From the IMG/VR virus record IMGVR_UViG_3300005910_000039, positions 1 through 21,748 of that record: 21,748 nt of DNA. The stretch is one strand, 5' to 3'. The notes under the pieces are model-generated. The model did no database searches, was not told the origin of the DNA, and saw only the letters and a program-made list of their open reading frames with translations. A program made the translations under genes and the position numbers. Of this stretch, positions 873-11,668 are shown piece after piece (the first letter of the stretch is position 1; every line of letters begins with the position of its first letter). The DNA is from a virus.

Positions 873-946
873 CAATTATTCTTTATATATAAGAAAAAAA
901 GTTACAACACGCCTTTTTACAATGCGTACTAGGTTGGAACAAATAT

Positions 947-1067
947 GAACGGGTGGCGAAAAGGTAAACGCACTGAAGAAAATAATGTGATTGGGAAGTA
1001 AGGATTCCGTTAAAAGCGATATGTCCTAGTACCAACGACGTGTAAGGTTCAACTCCTTACCCTGTTC
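947..1067 (+). ncRNA. tRNA-like RNA domain with non-canonical anticodon arm
   Basis: It has a possible acceptor stem GAACGGG (947-953) with CCTGTTC (1061-1067), a D-arm-like GCG/CGC hairpin, and a T-arm TAAGG-TTCAACT-CCTTA (1043-1059) whose loop fits the TTCRANY rule. The anticodon arm is replaced by CTGAAGAAAATAATGTG (973-989), the same 17 bases found in the RNA at 6297. It is followed by a long insert bounded by TTGG/CCAA. No 5-bp/7-nt anticodon arm and no CCA are present. It could be a decayed tRNA, a tRNA-like part of a larger RNA, or a decoy. The helices were paired by eye. Confidence 0.5.
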
Positions 1068-1416
1068 TAAATTATAACATTTGAATGTTACACTGCTCGT
1101 GGTTAGAGCAATATAAATTATCGCACTGTAGTTTCATCCATTGTACCCGTGTGGTCAGTGGAGCATAAAAACTCTCAAGGGTAGAGTTCTACATATAAGC
1201 CGATATAGTAAGGTCATTCCTTACTAGCAAAACATGTTGTAGTGATTATAGTATGCCTGCGCGGTTGAGACGAAATCTCATGCTATAAAATATCTTAACT
1301 GCTGATAAGCAGAATGTGTCTTGCTAGTAGTGATATGACTACACACATGGCCCTAAGTTACCCTTTTAATGAGGAAAGGCCACGCGTAACGGATGAGGCT
1401 TAGTCATAATCGTTAC
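1068..1416 (+). ncRNA. large structured RNA, family not identified (GOLLD/ROOL-like candidate)
   Basis: There is no ORF here, but many complementary helices. They are TAACAT/ATGTTA (1075-1090), TGCTC/GAGCA (1094-1110), AACTCT/AGAGTT (1170-1188, 7-nt loop CAAGGGT), GTAAGG/CCTTAC (1208-1224), TATAG/CTATA (1247-1287) enclosing GAGA/TCTC, CTGCT/AGCAG (1299-1312), TGGCC/GGCCA (1348-1382) and GTAACG/CGTTAC (1386-1416). A long-range helix CTAGCAA (1224-1230) with TTGCTAG (1321-1327) closes a multi-branched domain. GGGT in the CAAGGGT loop can pair with ACCC at 1145-1148 as a pseudoknot. Large ornate RNAs such as GOLLD and ROOL are known beside phage tRNA genes, and the gene-free stretch is similar in length to them. 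Membership is inference from size, position and complexity only. Confidence 0.5.
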
Positions 1417-1458
1417 AATTAGTTAGTTAGACAGTTAGTAAGAAGGAGATAGGTAGAT

Positions 1459-1719
1459 ATGATAGTTAAGTTTAAAAAAAGGGATTTACAGAACGGCAAA
1501 TATGCAGATGAATCAAATCAAGCGAGTAGTGAAAATGTCTATGACATTATGCCAATAACAATAATTGATAATGTAGTAGATTTTAAAGAGTTTAAGGATA
1601 ACGTACAATTTTATATGTATACAAAGGAAGAAAAAGATATGATAAGCGTACAAAAAGATACATTAGACTATTTCTTTGTAATGAACGACCAAGGTCAAAC
1701 AATAGAAAGAATCAAATAG
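1459..1719 (+). CDS. small hypothetical protein, 86 aa
   Basis: GAAGGAGAT at 1442-1450 precedes ATG 1459 at a suitable distance. The protein is soluble and mixed-charge, with a basic start (MIVKFKKRD) and an acidic, aromatic middle (FYMYTKEEKDMISV). It has no recognised domain. It is bracketed by a 14-bp inverted repeat and follows the structured RNA region directly. Its stop codon lies in a hairpin with a GCAA loop. Confidence 0.6.
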   Translation: MIVKFKKRDLQNGKYADESNQASSENVYDIMPITIIDNVVDFKEFKDNVQFYMYTKEEKDMISVQKDTLDYFFVMNDQGQTIERIK

Positions 1720-2783: not shown

Positions 2784-2859
2784 GGTGGAGGTAGCATAAA
2801 GGTAATGCACTAGCCTGTGAAGTTAGCAGATATGAGTTCGAATCTCATCGTTCACCCCA
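2784..2859 (+). tRNA. tRNA-His (GTG)
   Basis: Cloverleaf with anticodon arm CTAGC-CTGTGAA-GTTAG (anticodon GTG) and T-arm ATGAG-TTCGAAT-CTCAT. The encoded G at 2784 lies opposite C73, the G-1 identity element unique to tRNA-His. CCA is encoded at 2857-2859. There is one mismatch low in the acceptor stem. First gene of the array. Confidence 0.93.
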
Positions 2860-2863
2860 AATT

Positions 2864-2939
2864 GGCCCCATAGTCTAGTGGTCTAAGACACTGCCCTTTC
2901 ACGGCAGCAACCCGGGTTCAAATCCCGGTGGGGTCACCA
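2864..2939 (+). tRNA. tRNA-Glu (TTC)
   Basis: Acceptor GGCCCCA pairs with TGGGGTC. The anticodon arm has loop CTTTCAC with anticodon TTC, and the T-arm is CCGGG-TTCAAAT-CCCGG. CCA is encoded at 2937-2939. It is complete and canonical, starting five bases after tRNA-His. Confidence 0.95.
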
Positions 2940-2944
2940 ATTAT

Positions 2945-3020
2945 GCCCACTTAGCTCAGTGGATAGAGCACAGGATTTCTAATCCTGCGGTCCCAGGTTC
3001 GAGTCCTGGAGTGGGCGCCA
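2945..3020 (+). tRNA. tRNA-Arg (TCT)
   Basis: Acceptor GCCCACT pairs with AGTGGGC. Anticodon arm is CAGGA-TTTCTAA-TCCTG (anticodon TCT, codon AGA). T-arm is CCAGG-TTCGAGT-CCTGG. CCA is encoded. The AGA codon is common in A+T-rich genomes. Confidence 0.95.
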
Positions 3021-3041
3021 AAAAGATTAGAGGTGTTACAA

Positions 3042-3389
3042 ATGGAAAGTATTTTTACAAGAGAAATTAAGTTAACACCAGAGGGATGTAAGAGGTTCTT
3101 AGAAATAATGAATGAGCCAATAGACCCTAAAAGAATAATTAAGATTACGGAGAACCCTAACAAAGTTCCTGTGGAAGAATATTTTAAGATAATGAAGGCA
3201 TACCATATAATCCCTAAGCCAAAAGGTAGATGGGGATTACAGAGACATAATGCCACTAGGGCTACTAAATTATTTGATGATAAAGATGAAGCAGTTTCAT
3301 ATTTTAAAAGTAAACACAAGACGGGTAGATTATACATTCATAGAGACACTGGTTCTATATCTGATACAATAAATTTACCGCAACAGTAA
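3042..3389 (+). CDS. hypothetical protein with DUF2188-like C-terminus, 115 aa
   Basis: AGAGGTG at 3030-3036 favours ATG 3042 over the in-frame GTG at 3033. Residues about 3-28 (FTREIKLTPEGCKRFLEIMN) recall the motif at the end of DUF1778/TacA-type antitoxins. Residues about 60-106 (a Trp-Gly start, RATKLFDDKDEAVSYF, then LYIHRDTGSI) match the pattern of the DUF2188 family, small proteins of unknown role. It lies alone between tRNA-Arg(TCT) and tRNA-Asn. The DUF2188 call is moderately supported; the antitoxin resemblance is weak. Confidence 0.65.
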   Translation: MESIFTREIKLTPEGCKRFLEIMNEPIDPKRIIKITENPNKVPVEEYFKIMKAYHIIPKPKGRWGLQRHNATRATKLFDDKDEAVSYFKSKHKTGRLYIHRDTGSISDTINLPQQ

Positions 3390-3399
3390 TAAAATAAAC

Positions 3400-3475
3400 G
3401 CTTTAGTAGCTCAGCTGGCAGAGCGCTTGACTGTTAATCAAGATGTCGGAGGTTCGAGCCCTTCCTAGAGCGCCA
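3400..3475 (+). tRNA. tRNA-Asn (GTT)
   Basis: Acceptor GCTTTAG pairs with CTAGAGC with one G-T. Anticodon arm is CTTGA-CTGTTAA-TCAAG (anticodon GTT). T-arm is GGAGG-TTCGAGC-CCTTC. CCA is encoded at 3473-3475. It is followed by a structured gene-free stretch. Confidence 0.94.
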
Positions 3476-3486
3476 TAATAAAATAC

Positions 3487-3685
3487 AAGTCCGAGATGAC
3501 TCTATAAACTAAGCCCCAGAGAGCCACTCAACGCACATTGAGACTGGGTATAGGAATAGCAAGCCCTTGGTAATTAGTGGCGGGAACAAGGTGAAATGTA
3601 CTAGTTTTAATAGATAATGTGATGAAAAGACTAGACATGCGAAACCACAAGGACGTAGCTGCCCCTTGTAAATATAGGCAGGGAC
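3487..3685 (+). ncRNA. structured RNA region between tRNA-Asn and tRNA-Ser(GCT)
   Basis: No ORF. An extended arm is built from CTATA (3502-3506)/TATAG (3549-3553), CCCAG (3515-3519)/CTGGG (3544-3548) and CTCAA (3527-3531)/TTGAG (3538-3542). Its right side is almost continuous, with one unpaired A, and its left side has bulges. Further helices are CCTTG/CAAGG (3565-3591), CTAGTTTT/AAAAGACTAG (about 3601-3634, with ATAATGTGAT in the loop) and CTGCC/GGCAG (about 3659-3681). It resembles no tRNA and no intron core I recognise. Function is unknown. Confidence 0.5.
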
Positions 3686-3687
3686 AT

Positions 3688-3777
3688 GGAGGTATACTCA
3701 AACGGTTAAGAGGAATGGTTGCTAACTATTTAGATCGTTAATTCGGTGCGTAGGTTCGAATCCTACTGCCTCCGCCA
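3688..3777 (+). tRNA. tRNA-Ser (GCT)
   Basis: Class II tRNA with a long variable arm. Acceptor GGAGGTA pairs with TGCCTCC. The anticodon loop TTGCTAA gives anticodon GCT (codons AGC/AGT). T-arm is GTAGG-TTCGAAT-CCTAC. CCA is encoded at 3775-3777. Confidence 0.94.
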
Positions 3778-3786
3778 AAAATATAT

Positions 3787-3874
3787 GGGGAGTTACTCAA
3801 GTGGCTTAAGAGACTGGTCTTGAAAACCAGCAGATCGAGCAATCGGTGCAGGGGTTCAAATCCCTTACTCCCCG
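3787..3874 (+). tRNA. tRNA-Ser (TGA), ends at nucleotide 73 with no CCA; interrupted 3' end
   Basis: Acceptor GGGGAGT pairs perfectly with ACTCCCC (3867-3873). Anticodon arm is CTGGT-CTTGAAA-ACCAG (TGA). The T-loop is TTCAAAT. Unlike its neighbours, the discriminator G3874 is followed by CGGC, not CCA, where a GIY-YIG element begins. A second copy of nucleotides 60-76, ending in CCA, lies at 4566-4582. The gene could still mature by 3' trimming and enzymatic CCA addition. Confidence 0.9.
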
Positions 3875-3909
3875 CGGCTACATGATATTGCCTTCTCGTG
3901 GCGTAGCTG
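3875..3909 (+). other. conserved-shape hairpin at the left end of the GIY-YIG element (Ser)
   Basis: CGGCTAC (3875-3881) pairs with GTAGCTG (3903-3909). An 8-nt left bulge follows, then GCC/GGC closes a 7-nt loop TTCTCGT (3893-3899). The hairpin at 5571-5607 has the same plan with a different stem sequence, which implies selection for structure. Confidence 0.65.
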
Positions 3910-3950
3910 TTTAAACTAAAATATCAAAGATAGAAAGGAGCTATTTAATT

Positions 3951-4565
3951 ATGGCATACATCTACAAAATTATAAACAAGAAAAATGGTAAATGTTATAT
4001 CGGAAAGACAGAATCATTTGATCCTTATTCAAGATGGACAGAGCATAAAGCAGAAAATAGGCGTGCCAGGTCCAATCGAGCCCTCTATAGTGCTATGAGA
4101 AAATATGGAGAAGAATCCTTTACCTTTATGGTATTAGAAAAAACTGAGGAACCAAATAAACGTGAAATTGATTATATTACCCTCCATGATAGTTATCATA
4201 GTGGTTACAATGAAACATTAGGAGGCGATGGTAGGAGTTATTTAAACTTAGACACTAATGATGTCTGTATGTACTATCTAGCCGTTAATTCAATAGCAAC
4301 AACAGCAGAATATTATAAATGTGATGTCGGGACTATACGTAACATCTTATATAATAAGAATATCCCGACTTTAACTGGGGCGCAAGTTACTAAAAATAAA
4401 ACTAAAAAAGCCGTTGCTCAGATAGATAAAATAACAGATATGATTATAGCAACCTTTGAGTCTACAATGGAAGCAGAAAGAGCTGTGGGAGGGAATAAAC
4501 ACATTGCTGATGTGTGTAATAGAAAAAGAAAAACTGCGGATGGGTACAAGTGGAAGTATATATAG
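3951..4565 (+). CDS. GIY-YIG homing-type endonuclease with NUMOD1-like tail, 204 aa
   Basis: Predicted site-specific DNA endonuclease. The GIY-YIG nuclease domain covers about residues 1-95: YIYKI and CYIGKT form the two signature strands, SRWTEHK holds the conserved Arg, REIDYI the metal-binding Glu, and GYNETLGGDG the end of the fold. A helix-turn-helix-like segment spans about 105-140 (TAEYYKCDVGTIRNILYNKN). A NUMOD1/IENR1-type DNA-binding repeat spans about 155-204 (EAERAVGGNKHIADVCNRKR). GAAAGGAG at 3932-3939 sets ATG 3951. The stop codon abuts a copy of the 3' end of tRNA-Ser. It is related throughout to the gene at 5658, including the binding site and first codons. Its target is inferred to be a tRNA-Ser 3' end. 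Confidence 0.88.
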   Translation: MAYIYKIINKKNGKCYIGKTESFDPYSRWTEHKAENRRARSNRALYSAMRKYGEESFTFMVLEKTEEPNKREIDYITLHDSYHSGYNETLGGDGRSYLNLDTNDVCMYYLAVNSIATTAEYYKCDVGTIRNILYNKNIPTLTGAQVTKNKTKKAVAQIDKITDMIIATFESTMEAERAVGGNKHIADVCNRKRKTADGYKWKYI

Positions 4566-4582
4566 TCCCTGGCTCTCCGCCA
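4566..4582 (+). repeat. second copy of tRNA-Ser(TGA) nucleotides 60-76 with CCA
   Basis: TCCCTGGCTCTCCGCCA directly follows the GIY-YIG stop codon. Compared with 3861-3874 it supplies T60, the 3' T-stem strand, the acceptor 3' strand and G73, then the CCA absent from the upstream tRNA. It is a remnant or spare 3' end, not a whole tRNA. Confidence 0.75.
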
Positions 4583-4612
4583 AATTTAAAATTAATAGAA
4601 GGAGGTAATAAT

Positions 4613-4801
4613 ATGGACAAATTAGCGAAGAGATACAAGGACAAATATAACCAAGAAGTAAATGCAAAACGAAATATGTACAACAGACTAAAACGATACG
4701 ACAAACTAAAAAAAGCGGTAGAGTCTGAAGACAGTGTTTATGTAAATCAGTTATTAGAAGATATAAACGAAAGCAACAAAAATTATAAATTGCTCATCTA
4801 A
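4613..4801 (+). CDS. small basic helical protein, 62 aa
   Basis: GAAGGAGGT at 4599-4607 selects ATG 4613. An in-frame ATG at 4550 lies inside the GIY-YIG gene and is rejected. The protein is rich in Lys, Tyr, Asn and Arg (KLAKRYKDKYNQEVNAKRNM) and probably a single coiled helical unit. No family is recognised. It ends three bases before tRNA-Gln. Confidence 0.6.
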   Translation: MDKLAKRYKDKYNQEVNAKRNMYNRLKRYDKLKKAVESEDSVYVNQLLEDINESNKNYKLLI

Positions 4802-4804
4802 AAT

Positions 4805-4878
4805 TGCCCCTTGGTGAAGTGGTATCACACCACACTTTGACTGTGGCATCCGAGGTTCGAATCCTTGAGGGGCAACCA
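4805..4878 (+). tRNA. tRNA-Gln (TTG)
   Basis: Acceptor TGCCCCT pairs with AGGGGCA, with T1-A72 as usual for tRNA-Gln. Anticodon arm is CCACA-CTTTGAC-TGTGG (TTG). The T-arm loop is TTCGAAT. CCA is encoded at 4876-4878. Confidence 0.94.
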
Positions 4879-4881
4879 AAT

Positions 4882-4956
4882 GTGCTGCTAGCTCAATGGT
4901 AGAGCACCTCACTTTTAATGAGGTGGTTGGAGGTTCAAATCCTTCGCAGCACACCA
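4882..4956 (+). tRNA. tRNA-Lys (TTT)
   Basis: Acceptor GTGCTGC pairs with GCAGCAC. Anticodon arm is CCTCA-CTTTTAA-TGAGG (TTT). T-arm is GGAGG-TTCAAAT-CCTTC. CCA is encoded at 4954-4956. An HNH gene starts 18 bases later, but this tRNA's 3' end is intact. Confidence 0.95.
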
Positions 4957-4973
4957 AAATAAAGGAGATAATT

Positions 4974-5489
4974 ATGGAAAAGTGGAAACCTCTTATTTAT
5001 AATACTGTCGATTACGGGGTATTTTATGAAGTCTCTAATTTAGGCAGAGTGCGAAACGCAAAGACTAAAAGAGTTGTTAAATTAAACTCCTCACAAACAG
5101 GTTATTTATGCTATGTTGGAAGTTTAGGTAGTCGTTCTAAAAGCAAGTCATTTAGAATCAATCGTGCAGTTATGTGTTCTTTTGAGCCAGCTGCGGATAC
5201 GACAAAGGATGTAAATCATATAGATGGAGATAAACACAATAATACAATAAGTAATTTAGAGTGGTGTTCGGCAAGTGAAAATATAAGGCACGCATACCAA
5301 AATAAGTTAATGAGCCGTCGGACAGGTTCAACCAACTCTGCTGCTAAGTTATCAAATGAGGCCATTAAAAAAATAAGAGAACTATATATACGAGGAAACA
5401 AAGAATTCGGATGTAGAGCACTAGGGAAAAAGTATAATGTGGCTCATACAACAATCTCCGACATTGTGAATAACATTAGTTGGATATGA
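4974..5489 (+). CDS. NUMOD4-HNH endonuclease with C-terminal HTH, 171 aa
   Basis: Predicted free-standing homing endonuclease. A NUMOD4 domain spans about residues 3-48 (EKWKPLIYN, YEVSNLGRVRN). The HNH_3 core spans about 78-108 (VNHIDGDKHNNTISNLEWCS; H82, N95). A helix-turn-helix segment ends the protein at about 125-171 (GCRALGKKYNVAHTTISDIV). AAAGGAGAT at 4961-4969 selects ATG 4974. The in-frame ATG at 4896 lies inside tRNA-Lys. It sits between intact tRNA-Lys and tRNA-Arg(TCG). Unlike the GIY-YIG genes, it has no duplicated tRNA end. Confidence 0.88.
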   Translation: MEKWKPLIYNTVDYGVFYEVSNLGRVRNAKTKRVVKLNSSQTGYLCYVGSLGSRSKSKSFRINRAVMCSFEPAADTTKDVNHIDGDKHNNTISNLEWCSASENIRHAYQNKLMSRRTGSTNSAAKLSNEAIKKIRELYIRGNKEFGCRALGKKYNVAHTTISDIVNNISWI

Positions 5490-5496
5490 TAAATAT

Positions 5497-5570
5497 ACCC
5501 TTGTGGCGCAATGGATTAGCGCAGTTGGTTTCGAACCAATTGGTTGAAGGTTCGAGTCCTTCCAGGGGTG
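5497..5570 (+). tRNA. tRNA-Arg (TCG), ends at nucleotide 73 with no CCA; interrupted 3' end
   Basis: Acceptor ACCCTTG pairs with CAGGGGT (5563-5569, one T-G). D-arm is GCGC/GCGC. Anticodon arm is GTTGG-TTTCGAA-CCAAT (TCG). T-arm is GAAGG-TTCGAGT-CCTTC. After G5570 comes GGAACAC instead of CCA: a GIY-YIG element starts here. The 3' copy at 6276-6282 (CAAGGGT) complements ACCCTTG perfectly, better than the adjacent strand does. Confidence 0.9.
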
Positions 5571-5607
5571 GGAACACGAGTTTAACCACTTCCACGTAGT
5601 GTGTTCT
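5571..5607 (+). other. conserved-shape hairpin at the left end of the GIY-YIG element (Arg)
   Basis: GGAACAC (5571-5577) pairs with GTGTTCT (5601-5607). A 10-nt left bulge follows, then ACT/AGT closes a 7-nt loop TCCACGT (5591-5597). The counterpart at 3875 has unrelated stems but the same geometry and a similar loop (T-Y-C-W-C-G-T). Confidence 0.65.
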
Positions 5608-5657
5608 GGATAAAGCAAGGAGTTAAACAATGTAGTATAGAAAGGAGCTGTTTAATT

Positions 5658-6269
5658 ATGGCATACATCTATAAAGTTACAAACAAGAATAACGGAAAGA
5701 TTTATGTAGGTAAGACTAATCAAGATGTCAAACACCGTTGGAAACAACATTGCAACGATTTCAAGAGAACTAGAAACGAAAAGCGGCCATTATATGCAGC
5801 AATAAAAAAGTATGGAAGCAGTGCTTTTGAGATTTCGATTATAGAAGAAGTAATATCAGAGAAGAGTAGTGATAGAGAGATTTACTGGATTAACACTTTA
5901 GGAAGTTACAAGAATGGATATAACGCAACTAAAGGTGGCGATGGTACTATTTATATTGATTACGATTTAGTAGAAAGAACGTTTAATAACTTAGGATCAG
6001 TTTTAAAAACTACAGAGTTACTTGGTATACATGAGCAGACAGTTAGAAAAATATTGAAACAAAGGAATATCAGACTATTAACAAGATCAGAAATAGGAAA
6101 ACAGGCTAGTAAACCAGTGGGACAATACACCTTGGATAATGAAGTTATTGCAGTGTTTGGTTCTAGCAAAGAAGCCGCTAGAAGGCTAAATCTAAGAAGC
6201 TGTAATATATCAAGAACCTGTAATGGAAAAAGAAAAACAGCTTACGGATGCTTGTGGAGATTTATATAG
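5658..6269 (+). CDS. GIY-YIG homing-type endonuclease with NUMOD1-like tail, 203 aa
   Basis: Paralogue of the gene at 3951 and predicted to nick or cut a tRNA-gene target. The GIY-YIG domain spans about residues 1-98 (YIYKV, IYVGKT, HRWKQH with the Arg, DREIYWI with the catalytic Glu, GYNATKGGDG). A helix-turn-helix-like region spans about 105-140 (TELLGIHEQTVRKILKQRN). A NUMOD1-type repeat forms the C-terminus (KEAARRLNLRSCNISRTCNG). GAAAGGAG at 5640-5647 and the shared leader GAAAGGAGCTGTTTAATT fix ATG 5658. A longer in-frame start at 5601 lies inside the leader hairpin. The stop codon directly precedes a copy of the tRNA-Arg 3' end. Confidence 0.88.
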   Translation: MAYIYKVTNKNNGKIYVGKTNQDVKHRWKQHCNDFKRTRNEKRPLYAAIKKYGSSAFEISIIEEVISEKSSDREIYWINTLGSYKNGYNATKGGDGTIYIDYDLVERTFNNLGSVLKTTELLGIHEQTVRKILKQRNIRLLTRSEIGKQASKPVGQYTLDNEVIAVFGSSKEAARRLNLRSCNISRTCNGKRKTAYGCLWRFI

Positions 6270-6286
6270 TCTCTCCAAGGGTGCCA
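6270..6286 (+). repeat. second copy of tRNA-Arg(TCG) nucleotides 60-76 with CCA
   Basis: TCTCTCCAAGGGTGCCA follows the GIY-YIG stop codon. CAAGGGT is the perfect complement of the acceptor 5' strand ACCCTTG at 5497. G73 and CCA follow. The T-stem half (CTCTC) is diverged, so this is a partial 3' copy. Confidence 0.75.
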
Positions 6287-6296
6287 AATAATAAAT

Positions 6297-6408
6297 GAGT
6301 AGAGGCGGAAAATGTAGACGCGCTGAAGAAAATAATGTGTCCTCATACGGTGGGTAATCTTAGTGAACCACGCAAGGACGGTATAGAGTGTAAATCTCTA
6401 TCTACTCA
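6297..6408 (+). ncRNA. tRNA-Leu-derived tRNA-like RNA with altered anticodon arm
   Basis: Acceptor GAGTAGA (6297-6303) pairs perfectly with TCTACTC (6401-6407). The D-region GGCGGAAAATGTAGACGCGCT is nearly that of tRNA-Leu(TAG) at 6417. A T-arm-like TAGAG-TGTAAAT-CTCTA is present, but its loop breaks the TTC rule. The anticodon arm is replaced by CTGAAGAAAATAATGTG (6323-6339), shared with the RNA at 947. An extra arm GTCCT/AGGAC enclosing GTGG/CCAC spans about 6339-6378. There is no CCA (ACTA follows). Paired acceptor and arms argue against simple decay. Role unknown. Confidence 0.6.
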
Positions 6409-6416
6409 CTAATATG

Positions 6417-6500
6417 CCCTTATGGCGGAACTGGTAGACGCGCTAGCCTTAGAAGCTAGTCTGTAACAGGGTGCAAGTTCGACTCTTGCTAGGGGCACCA
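6417..6500 (+). tRNA. tRNA-Leu (TAG)
   Basis: Class II tRNA. Acceptor GCCCTTA pairs with TAGGGGC. Anticodon arm is CTAGC-CTTAGAA-GCTAG (TAG). It has a variable arm and T-loop TTCGACT. CCA is encoded at 6498-6500. Its D-region matches the tRNA-like RNA just upstream. Confidence 0.94.
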
Positions 6501-6504
6501 AATG

Positions 6505-6589
6505 CTCGGATGACGGAATTGGTAGACGTAGAGGACTTAAAATTCTCTGTCCTTGTGGCGTGGGAGTTCAAGTCTCCCTCTGAGCACCA
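6505..6589 (+). tRNA. tRNA-Leu (TAA)
   Basis: Acceptor GCTCGGA pairs with TCTGAGC. Anticodon loop CTTAAAA gives TAA. The long variable arm is followed by T-arm GGGAG-TTCAAGT-CTCCC. CCA is encoded at 6587-6589. Confidence 0.94.
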
Positions 6590-6598
6590 AATAAATAT

Positions 6599-6679
6599 GC
6601 GGGTCGAATATGCGTAGTGATATCGACAAAGAAAAGAGAGAGGCATAAAGATTATTCTAGTCTCTTTCAACCCGCTCCA
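6599..6679 (+). ncRNA. tRNA-like RNA with acceptor stem and CCA but no cloverleaf
   Basis: GCGGGT (6599-6604) pairs with ACCCGC (6670-6675), followed by T and an encoded CCA (6677-6679), exactly as a tRNA ends. Inside there are two hairpins instead of three canonical arms: GTCG-ATAT/ATAT-CGAC (about 6603-6626, one bulged A) and AAAGAGA/TCTCTTT (about 6633-6667) with a long loop. No anticodon arm and no proper T-arm are seen. The 81-nt size equals that of a tRNA. It is either a heavily remodelled tRNA or a tRNA mimic. Confidence 0.55.
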
Positions 6680-6683
6680 ACTT

Positions 6684-6760
6684 GGGGCATTAGCGTAGCG
6701 GTCTAACGCGCCACCCTGTCACGGTGGAGATCACGGGTTCAAATCCCGTATGCCTCGCCA
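6684..6760 (+). tRNA. tRNA-Asp (GTC)
   Basis: Acceptor GGGGCAT pairs with ATGCCTC. Anticodon arm is CCACC-CTGTCAC-GGTGG (GTC). T-arm is ACGGG-TTCAAAT-CCCGT. G73 and CCA are encoded. Confidence 0.95.
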
Positions 6761-6775
6761 ATTTAAAAATAATAA

Positions 6776-6851
6776 GGCTGAGTAGCTCCAACGGTAGAGC
6801 AGGCGGTTGAAGGCCGTCGTGTTGTAGGTTCGATTCCTACCTCAGCCACCA
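6776..6851 (+). tRNA. tRNA-Phe (GAA)
   Basis: Acceptor GGCTGAG pairs with CTCAGCC. Anticodon arm is GGCGG-TTGAAGG-CCGTC (GAA). T-arm is GTAGG-TTCGATT-CCTAC. A73 and CCA are encoded. Confidence 0.94.
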
Positions 6852-6854
6852 AAC

Positions 6855-6931
<77 letters not shown>

Positions 6932-6945
6932 TAAGAAAAATAATG

Positions 6946-7148
6946 AGGCCTTAAGTGGTCAACAGGTAGCCTAAGTATACTAGTAATTGCTTAGGTGGCG
7001 TAATGTCTTAATGTGAATCCATCGGTCGCCTATTTCGATAGAGCGGGCTAGGATTTTGTTTCATGGAAAACCTTTGTAGGTAACTCCTACATAAAAAAGT
7101 AACAAAGGCCTTAGGAGTTGCAAACGCTTTAGCCTTATTAGAAAGCGT
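6946..7148 (+). ncRNA. structured RNA region between tRNA-Ile and tRNA-Thr
   Basis: No ORF. AGGCCTT (6946-6952) and AAGGCCT (7105-7111) can close a domain. The domain holds CCTAAG/CTTAGG (6970-6995), GGCG/CGCC (6997-7030), CTAT-TTCG-ATAG (7030-7041, a stable UUCG loop), CCTTTG/CAAAGG (about 7071-7108) and the alternative TGTAGG/CCTACA (7075-7091). A perfect 7-bp hairpin ACGCTTT/AAAGCGT with an 11-nt loop (7124-7148) follows. Family not recognised. Too many consistent helices for ordinary spacer. Confidence 0.5.
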
Positions 7149-7155
7149 AAGACAA

Positions 7156-7231
7156 GCCGAAATAGCTCAACTGGTAGAGCAACTCACTTGTAATGAGTAG
7201 GTTGTGGGTTCAAGTCCTACTTTCGGCACCA
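7156..7231 (+). tRNA. tRNA-Thr (TGT)
   Basis: Acceptor GCCGAAA pairs with TTTCGGC. Anticodon arm is ACTCA-CTTGTAA-TGAGT (TGT). The T-loop is TTCAAGT. CCA is encoded at 7229-7231. Confidence 0.95.
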
Positions 7232-7236
7232 TATTT

Positions 7237-7307
7237 GGGGAAAAGTATGATACTAGTGCAATAAATATAATTGCATAATTTAGGTTTGAATCCTAATGAC
7301 TCCACCA
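7237..7307 (+). ncRNA. degenerate tRNA-like RNA with CCA end, lacking U33
   Basis: GGGG/CTCC starts an acceptor stem with mismatches below it. D-arm is reduced to AGTA-TGA-TACT. A 5-bp anticodon-type stem GCAAT/ATTGC holds a 7-nt loop AAATATA with A instead of T at position 33. T-arm is TTAGG-TTTGAAT-CCTAA, with T for C56. CCA is encoded at 7305-7307. It is most simply a decaying tRNA gene. A maintained decoy is possible because stems, length and CCA persist. Confidence 0.55.
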
Positions 7308-7312
7308 CAATT

Positions 7313-7398
7313 GGGAGTGTACTCAAGCGGTCAACGAGGTTAGACTGTAAATCTGATGGCTTTAGCCTTCGAAGGTTCGAATCCTTCAGCTCCCACCA
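7313..7398 (+). tRNA. tRNA-Tyr (GTA)
   Basis: Class II tRNA of the bacterial type. Acceptor GGGAGTG pairs with AGCTCCC, with one mismatch at the base. Anticodon arm is TTAGA-CTGTAAA-TCTGA (GTA). The variable arm is followed by T-arm GAAGG-TTCGAAT-CCTTC. CCA is encoded at 7396-7398. Last gene of the array. Confidence 0.93.
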
Positions 7399-10474: not shown

Positions 10475-10897
10475 ATGATAAGTTTTAACCTAGAAAAGAA
10501 AGAAGACGAAGAATTAGACGCAATGGAGTTCGCGGTAAAATATTACTACGAAAACAACGAAACAAAGAAAAAGGTTGAGAAAGAAGTAAAGAAACACGGT
10601 GCTACTATAAAGGAAAACCTTGAAGTTGGAGACAGCGCAACGTATCCCGCAGTAGGGCTAAAAGCATCACTCACAGCTAAGAAATCTACCTACTTACTAG
10701 CAGCAAAGTTAGAAGCAAAACTAGAGTCTCTTAAAGGTATTGTACCTGGAGTTGAAGAATGTTTTGTTACGACTGTAACGGTTGACCAAAATAAAGTAGG
10801 AGAACTAATAGCAGCAGGTTTACTTGATCCAACATTGTTAGAAGAATGTACGGAAGAAAAAGTAACAGGCGCGTTATATGTGAAACCTATAAAATAG
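10475..10897 (+). CDS. hypothetical early phage protein, 140 aa
   Basis: Start ATG 10475 is chosen because AAGGAGAGG lies seven bases upstream. The in-frame ATG at 10457 falls on the expected transcription start. The N-terminal part is acidic then Lys-rich and helical (ETKKKVEKEVKKHGATIKEN). The C-terminal part (about 70-140) is a small alpha/beta-like region (VTTVTVDQNKVGELIAAGLL). No family is recognised. A replication or recombination accessory role is inferred only from position directly behind a strong promoter. Confidence 0.7.
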   Translation: MISFNLEKKEDEELDAMEFAVKYYYENNETKKKVEKEVKKHGATIKENLEVGDSATYPAVGLKASLTAKKSTYLLAAKLEAKLESLKGIVPGVEECFVTTVTVDQNKVGELIAAGLLDPTLLEECTEEKVTGALYVKPIK

Positions 10898-10910
10898 AAG
10901 GGAGAATAAT

Positions 10911-11117
10911 ATGGCAAAATTAAAAGAAATGACGTTTCAAAAGGATGTAAAACTTTCTCACGATTACAACAGTGTAGGAATAACCTTTGGAGTTACTATG
11001 GAAGTTGAAGAAGGAGAAAACACAGATGAGTTAAAAATAAACTCATGGGCTGCTATTGACAAAGAAATGGAAATACAAGTCGTAGACGCTAAGAAAGTCT
11101 TGGGGATGCCTCAATGA
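10911..11117 (+). CDS. small hypothetical protein, 68 aa
   Basis: GAAGGGAGAAT precedes ATG 10911. The sequence suggests a small beta-rich protein (YNSVGITFGVTMEVEEGENT). Function unknown. Its stop overlaps the next start (ATGA at 11114-11117), indicating translational coupling to the replisome-organizer-like gene. Confidence 0.65.
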   Translation: MAKLKEMTFQKDVKLSHDYNSVGITFGVTMEVEEGENTDELKINSWAAIDKEMEIQVVDAKKVLGMPQ

Positions 11118-11668
11118 AGTATATAGAGATACCCATAAGATATTTTCTACCTGATGTTTATAGCGAGATAATAGGTTACTACGACATGGCAGGAGAGATG
11201 GTTATATTTCCTGTTTTTGAAGGACCTACAATAGAAATAAACATGGATGAAAAACCTGTAAAAAAAGTAGCAAAAAACAAAGAGTCAAAAGGAAAAAAAG
11301 TAGCAAAAAACAAAGTTACCAAAGATGAGCAGTTATTTGGTATGCTTGCGAATACGAAGACAGTAATAGATTTTTTCAACACAACAACAGGTTCAGATTT
11401 TAAAGCAACAACTAAAAGTACTCAACAGGCCATTCATGCAAGAATGGAAGAAGGGTACACAATAGAAGATATAAAAGAAGTAATTAATGTTAAAAGCGCC
11501 GACCCTTATTTTGTAACCAACCCAAGATACTTATGTCCCTCAACATTGTTTAGACCAAGCAATTTCGAGAAATATCTAAATGAAGCAAGAGCGGCAAAAG
11601 GCTTGACAAATGACACACATTTTAATACAGATGTGGAGACTGCCTCAATAAGTGACGAGAGTTTCTAA
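11114..11668 (+). CDS. phage replisome-organizer-like protein (conserved phage C-terminal domain), 184 aa
   Basis: Residues about 85-160 carry the pattern of the conserved phage C-terminal domain found in replication initiators: VIDFFNTTTGSDFKA, an IHARMEEGYTIEDIKEVI stretch, then YLCPSTLFRPSNFEKYLN. In known phages such proteins bind the origin and help load the helicase. The N-terminal half is short, with a Lys-rich duplicated linker (KKVAKNK twice, about 50-68) and no evident winged helix, so it may be a domain fragment acting with a partner. It is followed at once by the DnaC-like loader and DnaB-like helicase, which fits. Confidence 0.75.
   Translation: MKYIEIPIRYFLPDVYSEIIGYYDMAGEMVIFPVFEGPTIEINMDEKPVKKVAKNKESKGKKVAKNKVTKDEQLFGMLANTKTVIDFFNTTTGSDFKATTKSTQQAIHARMEEGYTIEDIKEVINVKSADPYFVTNPRYLCPSTLFRPSNFEKYLNEARAAKGLTNDTHFNTDVETASISDESF

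Follow-up and report, generated by a model that had tools for sequence, protein, structure and literature searches.

A gene-free stretch near a viral tRNA array appears to encode a tRNA-like RNA, with a paralogue elsewhere in the record, and a separate structured domain

Does a gene-free stretch of 586 nt near a phage tRNA array encode one large RNA, as an earlier note proposed, or several smaller ones? The stretch (873-1458) belongs to a virus record, whose entire 21.7-kb sequence was analyzed and is called the window here. The window encodes an SNF2 helicase with an interrupting intein, a RecA that also appears to contain one, and a DNA polymerase whose nearest named phage relatives are those of Streptococcus phages Dp-1 and MS1 (39-40% identity). 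The two premises about the setting held: there is no sense-strand gene between the coding sequences at 618-872 and 1459-1719, and 16 tRNA genes lie at 2785-7398. Features are listed in Table 1.

Table 1. Positions of the predicted RNA features in the window and of the pseudoknot RNA in other contigs
Feature	Position	Strand	Basis or remark
5' flank	873-946	+	z -0.98
GTACTAGG, complementary to CCTAGTAC within el1	926-933; 1025-1032	+	possible alternative pairing
el1, tRNA-like RNA (121 nt)	947-1067	+	minimum-energy fold, shuffle scan, R1 match, paralogue
el1 acceptor GAACGGG/CCTGTTC, 7 bp	947-953/1061-1067	+	
el1 D-arm	956-971	+	D-stem GCG/CGC, loop with GG; preceded by joint TG
17-nt conserved segment CTGAAGAAAATAATGTG	973-989	+	position read from sequence; identical in el2
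el1 variable arm, 52 nt	990-1041	+	
el1 T-arm GTAAGG-TTCAACT-CCTTAC, canonical T-loop	1042-1060	+	sequence and fold
Hairpin TGCTC-GTGGTTA-GAGCA	1094-1110	+	fold, probability 0.96; tRNA D-arm resemblance by eye
Separate structured RNA domain, ~280 nt	1125-1404	+	z -3.9, 0/200 shuffles; pair probabilities
Closing helix AGTTTCATCC/GGATGAGGCT, 10 bp	1130-1139/1391-1400	+	probability 0.99
Closing helix CGTGTGGTC/GGCCACGCG, 9 bp	1148-1156/1378-1386	+	probability 0.99
Hairpin of 3' domain	1158-1192	+	
Long arm of 3' domain	1199-1351	+	
Arm helix TTACTAGCAA/TTGCTAGTAG	1221-1230/1321-1330	+	probability 0.94
Arm helix ACATGTT/AATGTGT	1232-1238/1313-1319	+	
Further arm helices	1246-1255/1279-1288; 1299-1303/1308-1312	+	
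el2, el1 paralogue	6296-6408	+	record self-search, fold, shuffle scan, R1 match
el2 acceptor	6296-6302/6402-6408	+	
el2 D-arm	6305-6321	+	
el2 17-mer	6323-6339	+	
el2 variable arm	6340-6382	+	
el2 T-arm	6383-6401	+	
Pseudoknot RNA	L092:1174-1266; L093:1166-1260; L097:1164-1259; L094 and L095:1167-1260		
Pseudoknot RNA	L096:1163-1260; L212:5014-5109 (-); L098:~1167-1260; L100:~1472-1620		

The + strand of 873-1458 folds at -150.3 kcal/mol (z -2.73), which beats all of 100 dinucleotide shuffles, and fold statistics and setting together agree with a structured non-coding RNA near a phage tRNA array. The reverse strand has an almost equal z of -2.48, and hence the strand is not given by energy alone. 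Promoter-like sequence within the stretch showed no excess over shuffles, and the one terminator-like site (1299-1312) falls inside the structured 3' domain. When the stretch was divided, the excess of structure was found in 1126-1404 and was absent from the flanks; the region at 940-1072 alone gave z -1.5.

This 5' region is predicted to form a tRNA-like RNA, designated el1, whose minimum-energy fold closes 947-1067 on itself and stacks the T-arm directly on the acceptor. Between the D- and T-arms lie one base, 17 bases, and the enlarged variable arm. The 17-mer has the length of an anticodon arm (5+7+5), and its ends, CTGAA and ATGTG, are unable to pair. A search of the record with the gene-free region returned a second site at 6308-6339 (32 nt, 91%, E 2.6e-7), which belongs to a paralogue, el2, sharing all 17 nt of this segment. 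Both copies self-fold into acceptor, D-, and T-arms by minimum energy, acceptor and T-stem amount to 13 bp in each, and the variable arms span 43-52 nt. Between the two, 8 of 16 tRNA-type pairs are changed on both sides, with no one-sided change and no broken pair. The elbow bases co-differ as well, at two positions only as read from the sequence (G18 G19/U55 C56 in el1 and U18 G19/G55 U56 in el2), and the T-loop of el2, TGTAAAT, is non-canonical. MAFFT placed the single length difference of el1 and el2 at the end rather than in the D-loop. The covariation check on homologues that the earlier note proposed was possible for the tRNA-like part, between two paralogues only, but not for the 3' domain, for which no homologue was found.

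Folds and pairs give both elements the acceptor, D-arm, and T-arm of a tRNA; a 5-bp anticodon stem with a 7-base loop is absent from both. ARAGORN and Rfam are blind at these positions, in that neither ARAGORN nor cmscan called a tRNA at el1 or el2. The 15 bases at the 3' end of the 17-mer have no complement in the window at up to three mismatches, and searches of viral contigs and genome contigs with patterns built around the 17-mer, both exact and degenerate, returned nothing or coding coincidences. The el1 T-arm also accounts for part of a reported triple repeat of GTAAGG: the copy at 1042 is the 5' strand of this arm and the copy at 1208 is present, but the first copy lies at 998 and not at 1008. 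That some 6-mer occurs three times in 586 nt is unremarkable.

We assessed chance with a scan for frames consisting of an acceptor, a D-stem, and an abutting T-arm. The + strand of the window contains three such frames, namely those of el1 and el2 and a third, lacking a T-loop, that falls in coding sequence; the mean per whole-window shuffle is 0.025. A frame arose in 12 of 3000 shuffles of the 586 nt and in 1 of 5000 shuffles of the el2 region; the scan was devised after el1 had been seen, which tilts the figures somewhat in its favor. The folding energy of el2 alone is weakly distinguished (MFE z -1.1). Model R1 was built from 14 tRNA-Leu-like, pseudoknot-bearing RNAs of other viral contigs with the window left out. 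R1 matches el1 end to end (E 7.1e-6) and el2 with E 0.01, and these are its best matches in the window apart from annotated tRNAs. Since genuine tRNA-Leu genes in the window reach equally high scores (27-30 bits), R1 supports the tRNA body only and not the payload.

Descent of el1 and el2 from a tRNA-Leu is likely from their sequences, because el2 adjoins the tRNA-Leu(tag) gene and their D-arms differ at few positions. The same proximity would suit a reading in which both elements are tRNA-Leu pseudogenes, decaying after duplication in the array. Neither copy is followed by an encoded CCA (TAAA follows 1067 and CTAA follows 6408), and the array does hold a degenerate tRNA at 7234-7309. Decay, however, would not leave eight compensated pairs and none broken, nor 17 identical unpaired bases in copies that otherwise differ in sequence, and we consider it fairly unlikely. 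We lean instead, by a modest preference, to the reading that el1 and el2 are non-decoding payload RNAs with tRNA bodies, and that 1125-1404 is a separate RNA. Comparable builds in other viral contigs, described below, speak for this reading: tRNA-Leu-like bodies bearing a pseudoknot, and tRNA-family RNAs with inserted arms in a relative. Judged from folds and from two copies, both in one record, the elements are well supported as structures and weakly supported as functional RNAs.

The 3' domain, to judge by its predicted pairs, probably folds on its own as a second RNA of the region that contains el1. Since it is represented by a single sequence, its fold is purely an energy-based prediction. 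The 7-bp long-range helix described previously (1224-1230/1321-1327) is present in this fold but extends to 10 bp, and two stronger long-range helices, the closing helices of the domain, had been overlooked. A pseudoknot had been suggested between ACCC (1145-1148) and GGGT (1179-1182). Both motifs are present, but their pairing is unsupported, because the predicted local partner of GGGT is 1171-1174 and C1148 belongs to the 9-bp closing helix. The domain ends 55 nt upstream of the start codon of the gene at 1459-1719, which from its sequence has a good ribosome-binding site, and it could accordingly be pictured as a structured cis-acting leader of that gene. The ribosome-binding site lies outside the closing helices, however, no riboswitch or leader family matched, and the gene has no recognized family and no relatives in viral contigs, which makes a leader unlikely.

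The proposal of one 586-base RNA is contradicted by the closed acceptor stem of el1 and by its paralogue elsewhere, although the impression of a large multi-helix structure was correct insofar as the whole stretch is structured beyond shuffles. GOLLD and ROOL RNAs resemble the stretch in phage origin, tRNA-array setting, length, and multi-helix fold, and tRNAs are sometimes present in GOLLD linkers (PMC12286853), so that a single ornate cage RNA of this type might contain el1 as an internal tRNA-like part. By contrast, when 800-1520 and 1060-1470 were compared by cmscan with every Rfam 15 model (E <= 10), neither GOLLD nor ROOL matched, nor did any other family. Independent folding is confined here to ~280 nt, and adding flanks to the domain weakens its significance (z -1.84 for 1069-1458 compared to -3.9 for 1126-1404 alone). 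Moreover, el1 is self-closed and recurs alone as el2. We regard a single ornate RNA as very improbable, and no direct homologues of 873-1458 were found in phage records. The stretch is, on the predicted folds, composite and more structured than shuffled sequence, and it encodes at least two RNAs, el1 and the domain at about 1125-1404.

Helicase-guided searches led to two related contigs, L012 and L013 (55% identity), and a pattern search led to a third, L212, whose sequence overlaps both and runs on beyond them. In their array, two RNAs of the tRNA family, 116 and 130 nt long and scoring 43.6 and 40.7 bits in cmscan, carry inserted arms and are missed by ARAGORN; el1, el2, and the 3' domain have no match in the three contigs. 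Beside tRNA-Ala and tRNA-Val, the reverse complement of L212 has three RNA pieces that resemble one another (AGACAC ... CAGCAA ... GTGTCT), at about 1440-2100.

A side finding that may be the most transferable result is a pseudoknot RNA of ~95 nt with the core GAANAAGGGTTAAYAGTA ... AAACNAGTAACCCCGAAA, and GCTNTTAGG, which has no Rfam match. Among 12 members, 15 of 22 pairs are changed on both sides (0/500 shuffles). A scan of viral contigs gave at least 120 matches, some of them seemingly due to chance. As a free-standing RNA it is present in phages PM2, RaK2, KP13-26, other Klebsiella phages, and Erwinia phage Hallingskeid, in several of them next to tRNA genes. Cellulophaga phage phi19:3 and Bacillus phage Eldridge have it in circularly permuted form. 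In about 20 distinct RNAs of IMG/VR contigs, a tRNA-Leu-like body holds the pseudoknot instead of an anticodon arm, and the pairs of this structure covary, 7 of them differing on both sides (0/500 shuffles); the carriers include L126, L134, L137, L148, L174, L227, and about 15 other loci, often on contigs with few or no other tRNAs. A further context is phage RNase P RNA. One such RNA, of class A, lies in Stenotrophomonas phage DLP6 (L099:1302-1550, equal to KU682439.2 105774-106022; 54.7 bits, E 2.6e-14), whose record has no annotation of it, and one of class B lies in L212 (4922-5220, - strand; 32.8 bits, E 4e-6), where the pseudoknot is present as an inserted arm. Both matches are under the Rfam curated cut-offs, and both RNAs sit in tRNA arrays.

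Because these two arrays carry an RNase P RNA, we considered one for 1125-1404 and rejected it. The domain has no CR I, its long-range helices leave no room for P15-P18, no RNase P family matched 1060-1470 at E <= 10, and a CR I-CR V core with a match to RF00010 or RF00011 is lacking; the best RF00011 score in the window, 5.8 bits, falls outside the domain. The pseudoknot RNA was likewise sought in the window, where its core pattern is absent and the best match of model R2 (12.7 bits, E 0.22) is in coding sequence. El1 and el2 were rejected as diverged pseudoknot carriers, since their best core similarity was reached by 861/1000 and 578/1000 shuffles, respectively.

RNase P and RNase Z recognize the acceptor/T-arm stack of tRNA precursors. 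For the favored reading, in which el1 and el2 keep the acceptor, D-, and T-arms in shape, replace the anticodon arm by the single-stranded 17-mer, and enlarge the variable region, tRNA ends would allow tRNA-processing enzymes to excise the RNAs from a long array transcript and would protect them. RNase P would cut el1 at 946/947, and RNase Z or exonucleases would form its 3' end at 1067/1068, possibly followed by CCA addition. The working part would then be the conserved 17-mer together with the variable arm, binding an RNA or protein partner; transcription, processing, stability, and target of the elements are all matters that we infer. A different use of the same shape would be as decoys that soak up tRNA-cutting host defenses during infection, as both copies retain the elbow and a long variable arm but have lost decoding, and a phage tRNA-Tyr has been proposed as a decoy or supplement against Septu defense (PMC13096335). 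Yet what known anticodon nucleases recognize is the anticodon arm, and el1 and el2 have none; no defense target is known for either, so that we judge decoys to be quite unlikely. Returning to payload RNAs, we suggest tentatively, as a possibility that goes beyond this locus, that tRNA bodies are a general phage scaffold in which unrelated RNA payloads take over the place of the anticodon arm, the 17-mer here and a covarying pseudoknot elsewhere, and that tRNA-maturation enzymes release the resulting trans-acting RNAs from the array transcript and protect them.

The array contains other irregular pieces. At 5496-6286 and 3787-4582, respectively, tRNA-Arg(tcg) and tRNA-Ser(tga) are each followed by a GIY-YIG gene, and after each gene stands a second tRNA 3' end that fits the acceptor (CCAAGGGTGCCA at 6275-6286 and CTCTCCGCCA at about 4573-4582), as if insertion had supplied or displaced the tRNA end. 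Further RNA-like pieces lie between tRNA genes: at 6597-6683 a stem with T-CCA at its end, at 6931-7155 a long element that TGAGGCCTT/AAGGCCTTA closes, at 3476-3687 a piece of 212 nt with no gene, and at 7234-7309 the degenerate tRNA, which has a T-arm and CCA. The closest polymerase relative of the window, L003 (74%), likely has a group I intron, recognized by eye, with a GIY-YIG gene in a phage phosphoesterase-like gene (10480-11530).

Among known RNAs, tmRNA shares with el1 the plan of tRNA-like ends enclosing a non-tRNA middle. Unlike tmRNA, el1 has A3-U70 instead of the alanine identity pair G3-U70, a D-stem, and no pseudoknot ring, and ARAGORN and Rfam have no tmRNA match at el1. We also rejected a mini-tmRNA whose payload would contain a short frame, the identity pair being absent. 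The pseudoknot-bearing tRNA-Leu-like RNAs (L126, L148, L174) resemble el1 and el2 more extensively, with a 7-bp acceptor, a two-base joint, the 3-bp D-stem GCG/CGC, a T-arm, and a payload where a tRNA would have its anticodon arm. In these RNAs the payload is the covarying pseudoknot, whereas that of el1 and el2 matches it no better than shuffles do.

By analogy, the closest known counterparts are the T4 small RNAs C and D, which come from the T4 tRNA region, have unknown roles (PMC3014915), and were detected as late RNAs by Northern blotting (PMC9697503). RNAC (species 1 RNA) and RNAD resemble el1 and el2 in being small and in originating from a phage tRNA region with a GIY-YIG homing gene in it. 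As in el1, a canonical T-arm (CCGGG-TTCGAAT-CCCGG) stands close to the 3' end of RNAC, and a tRNA-like 3' end within a phage tRNA array is found in both el1 and el2. RNAC differs in sequence, its acceptor pairing is partial, and it does not share the 17-mer; moreover, the T4 RNAs are demonstrated, whereas el1 and el2 are predicted here from sequence. Non-coding RNAs of phage tRNA arrays have been known since T4, with no role assigned, and are overlooked by gene finders. A recurring tRNA body with varied payloads provides a testable idea of how such RNAs might be manufactured, and points to the part that may do the work.
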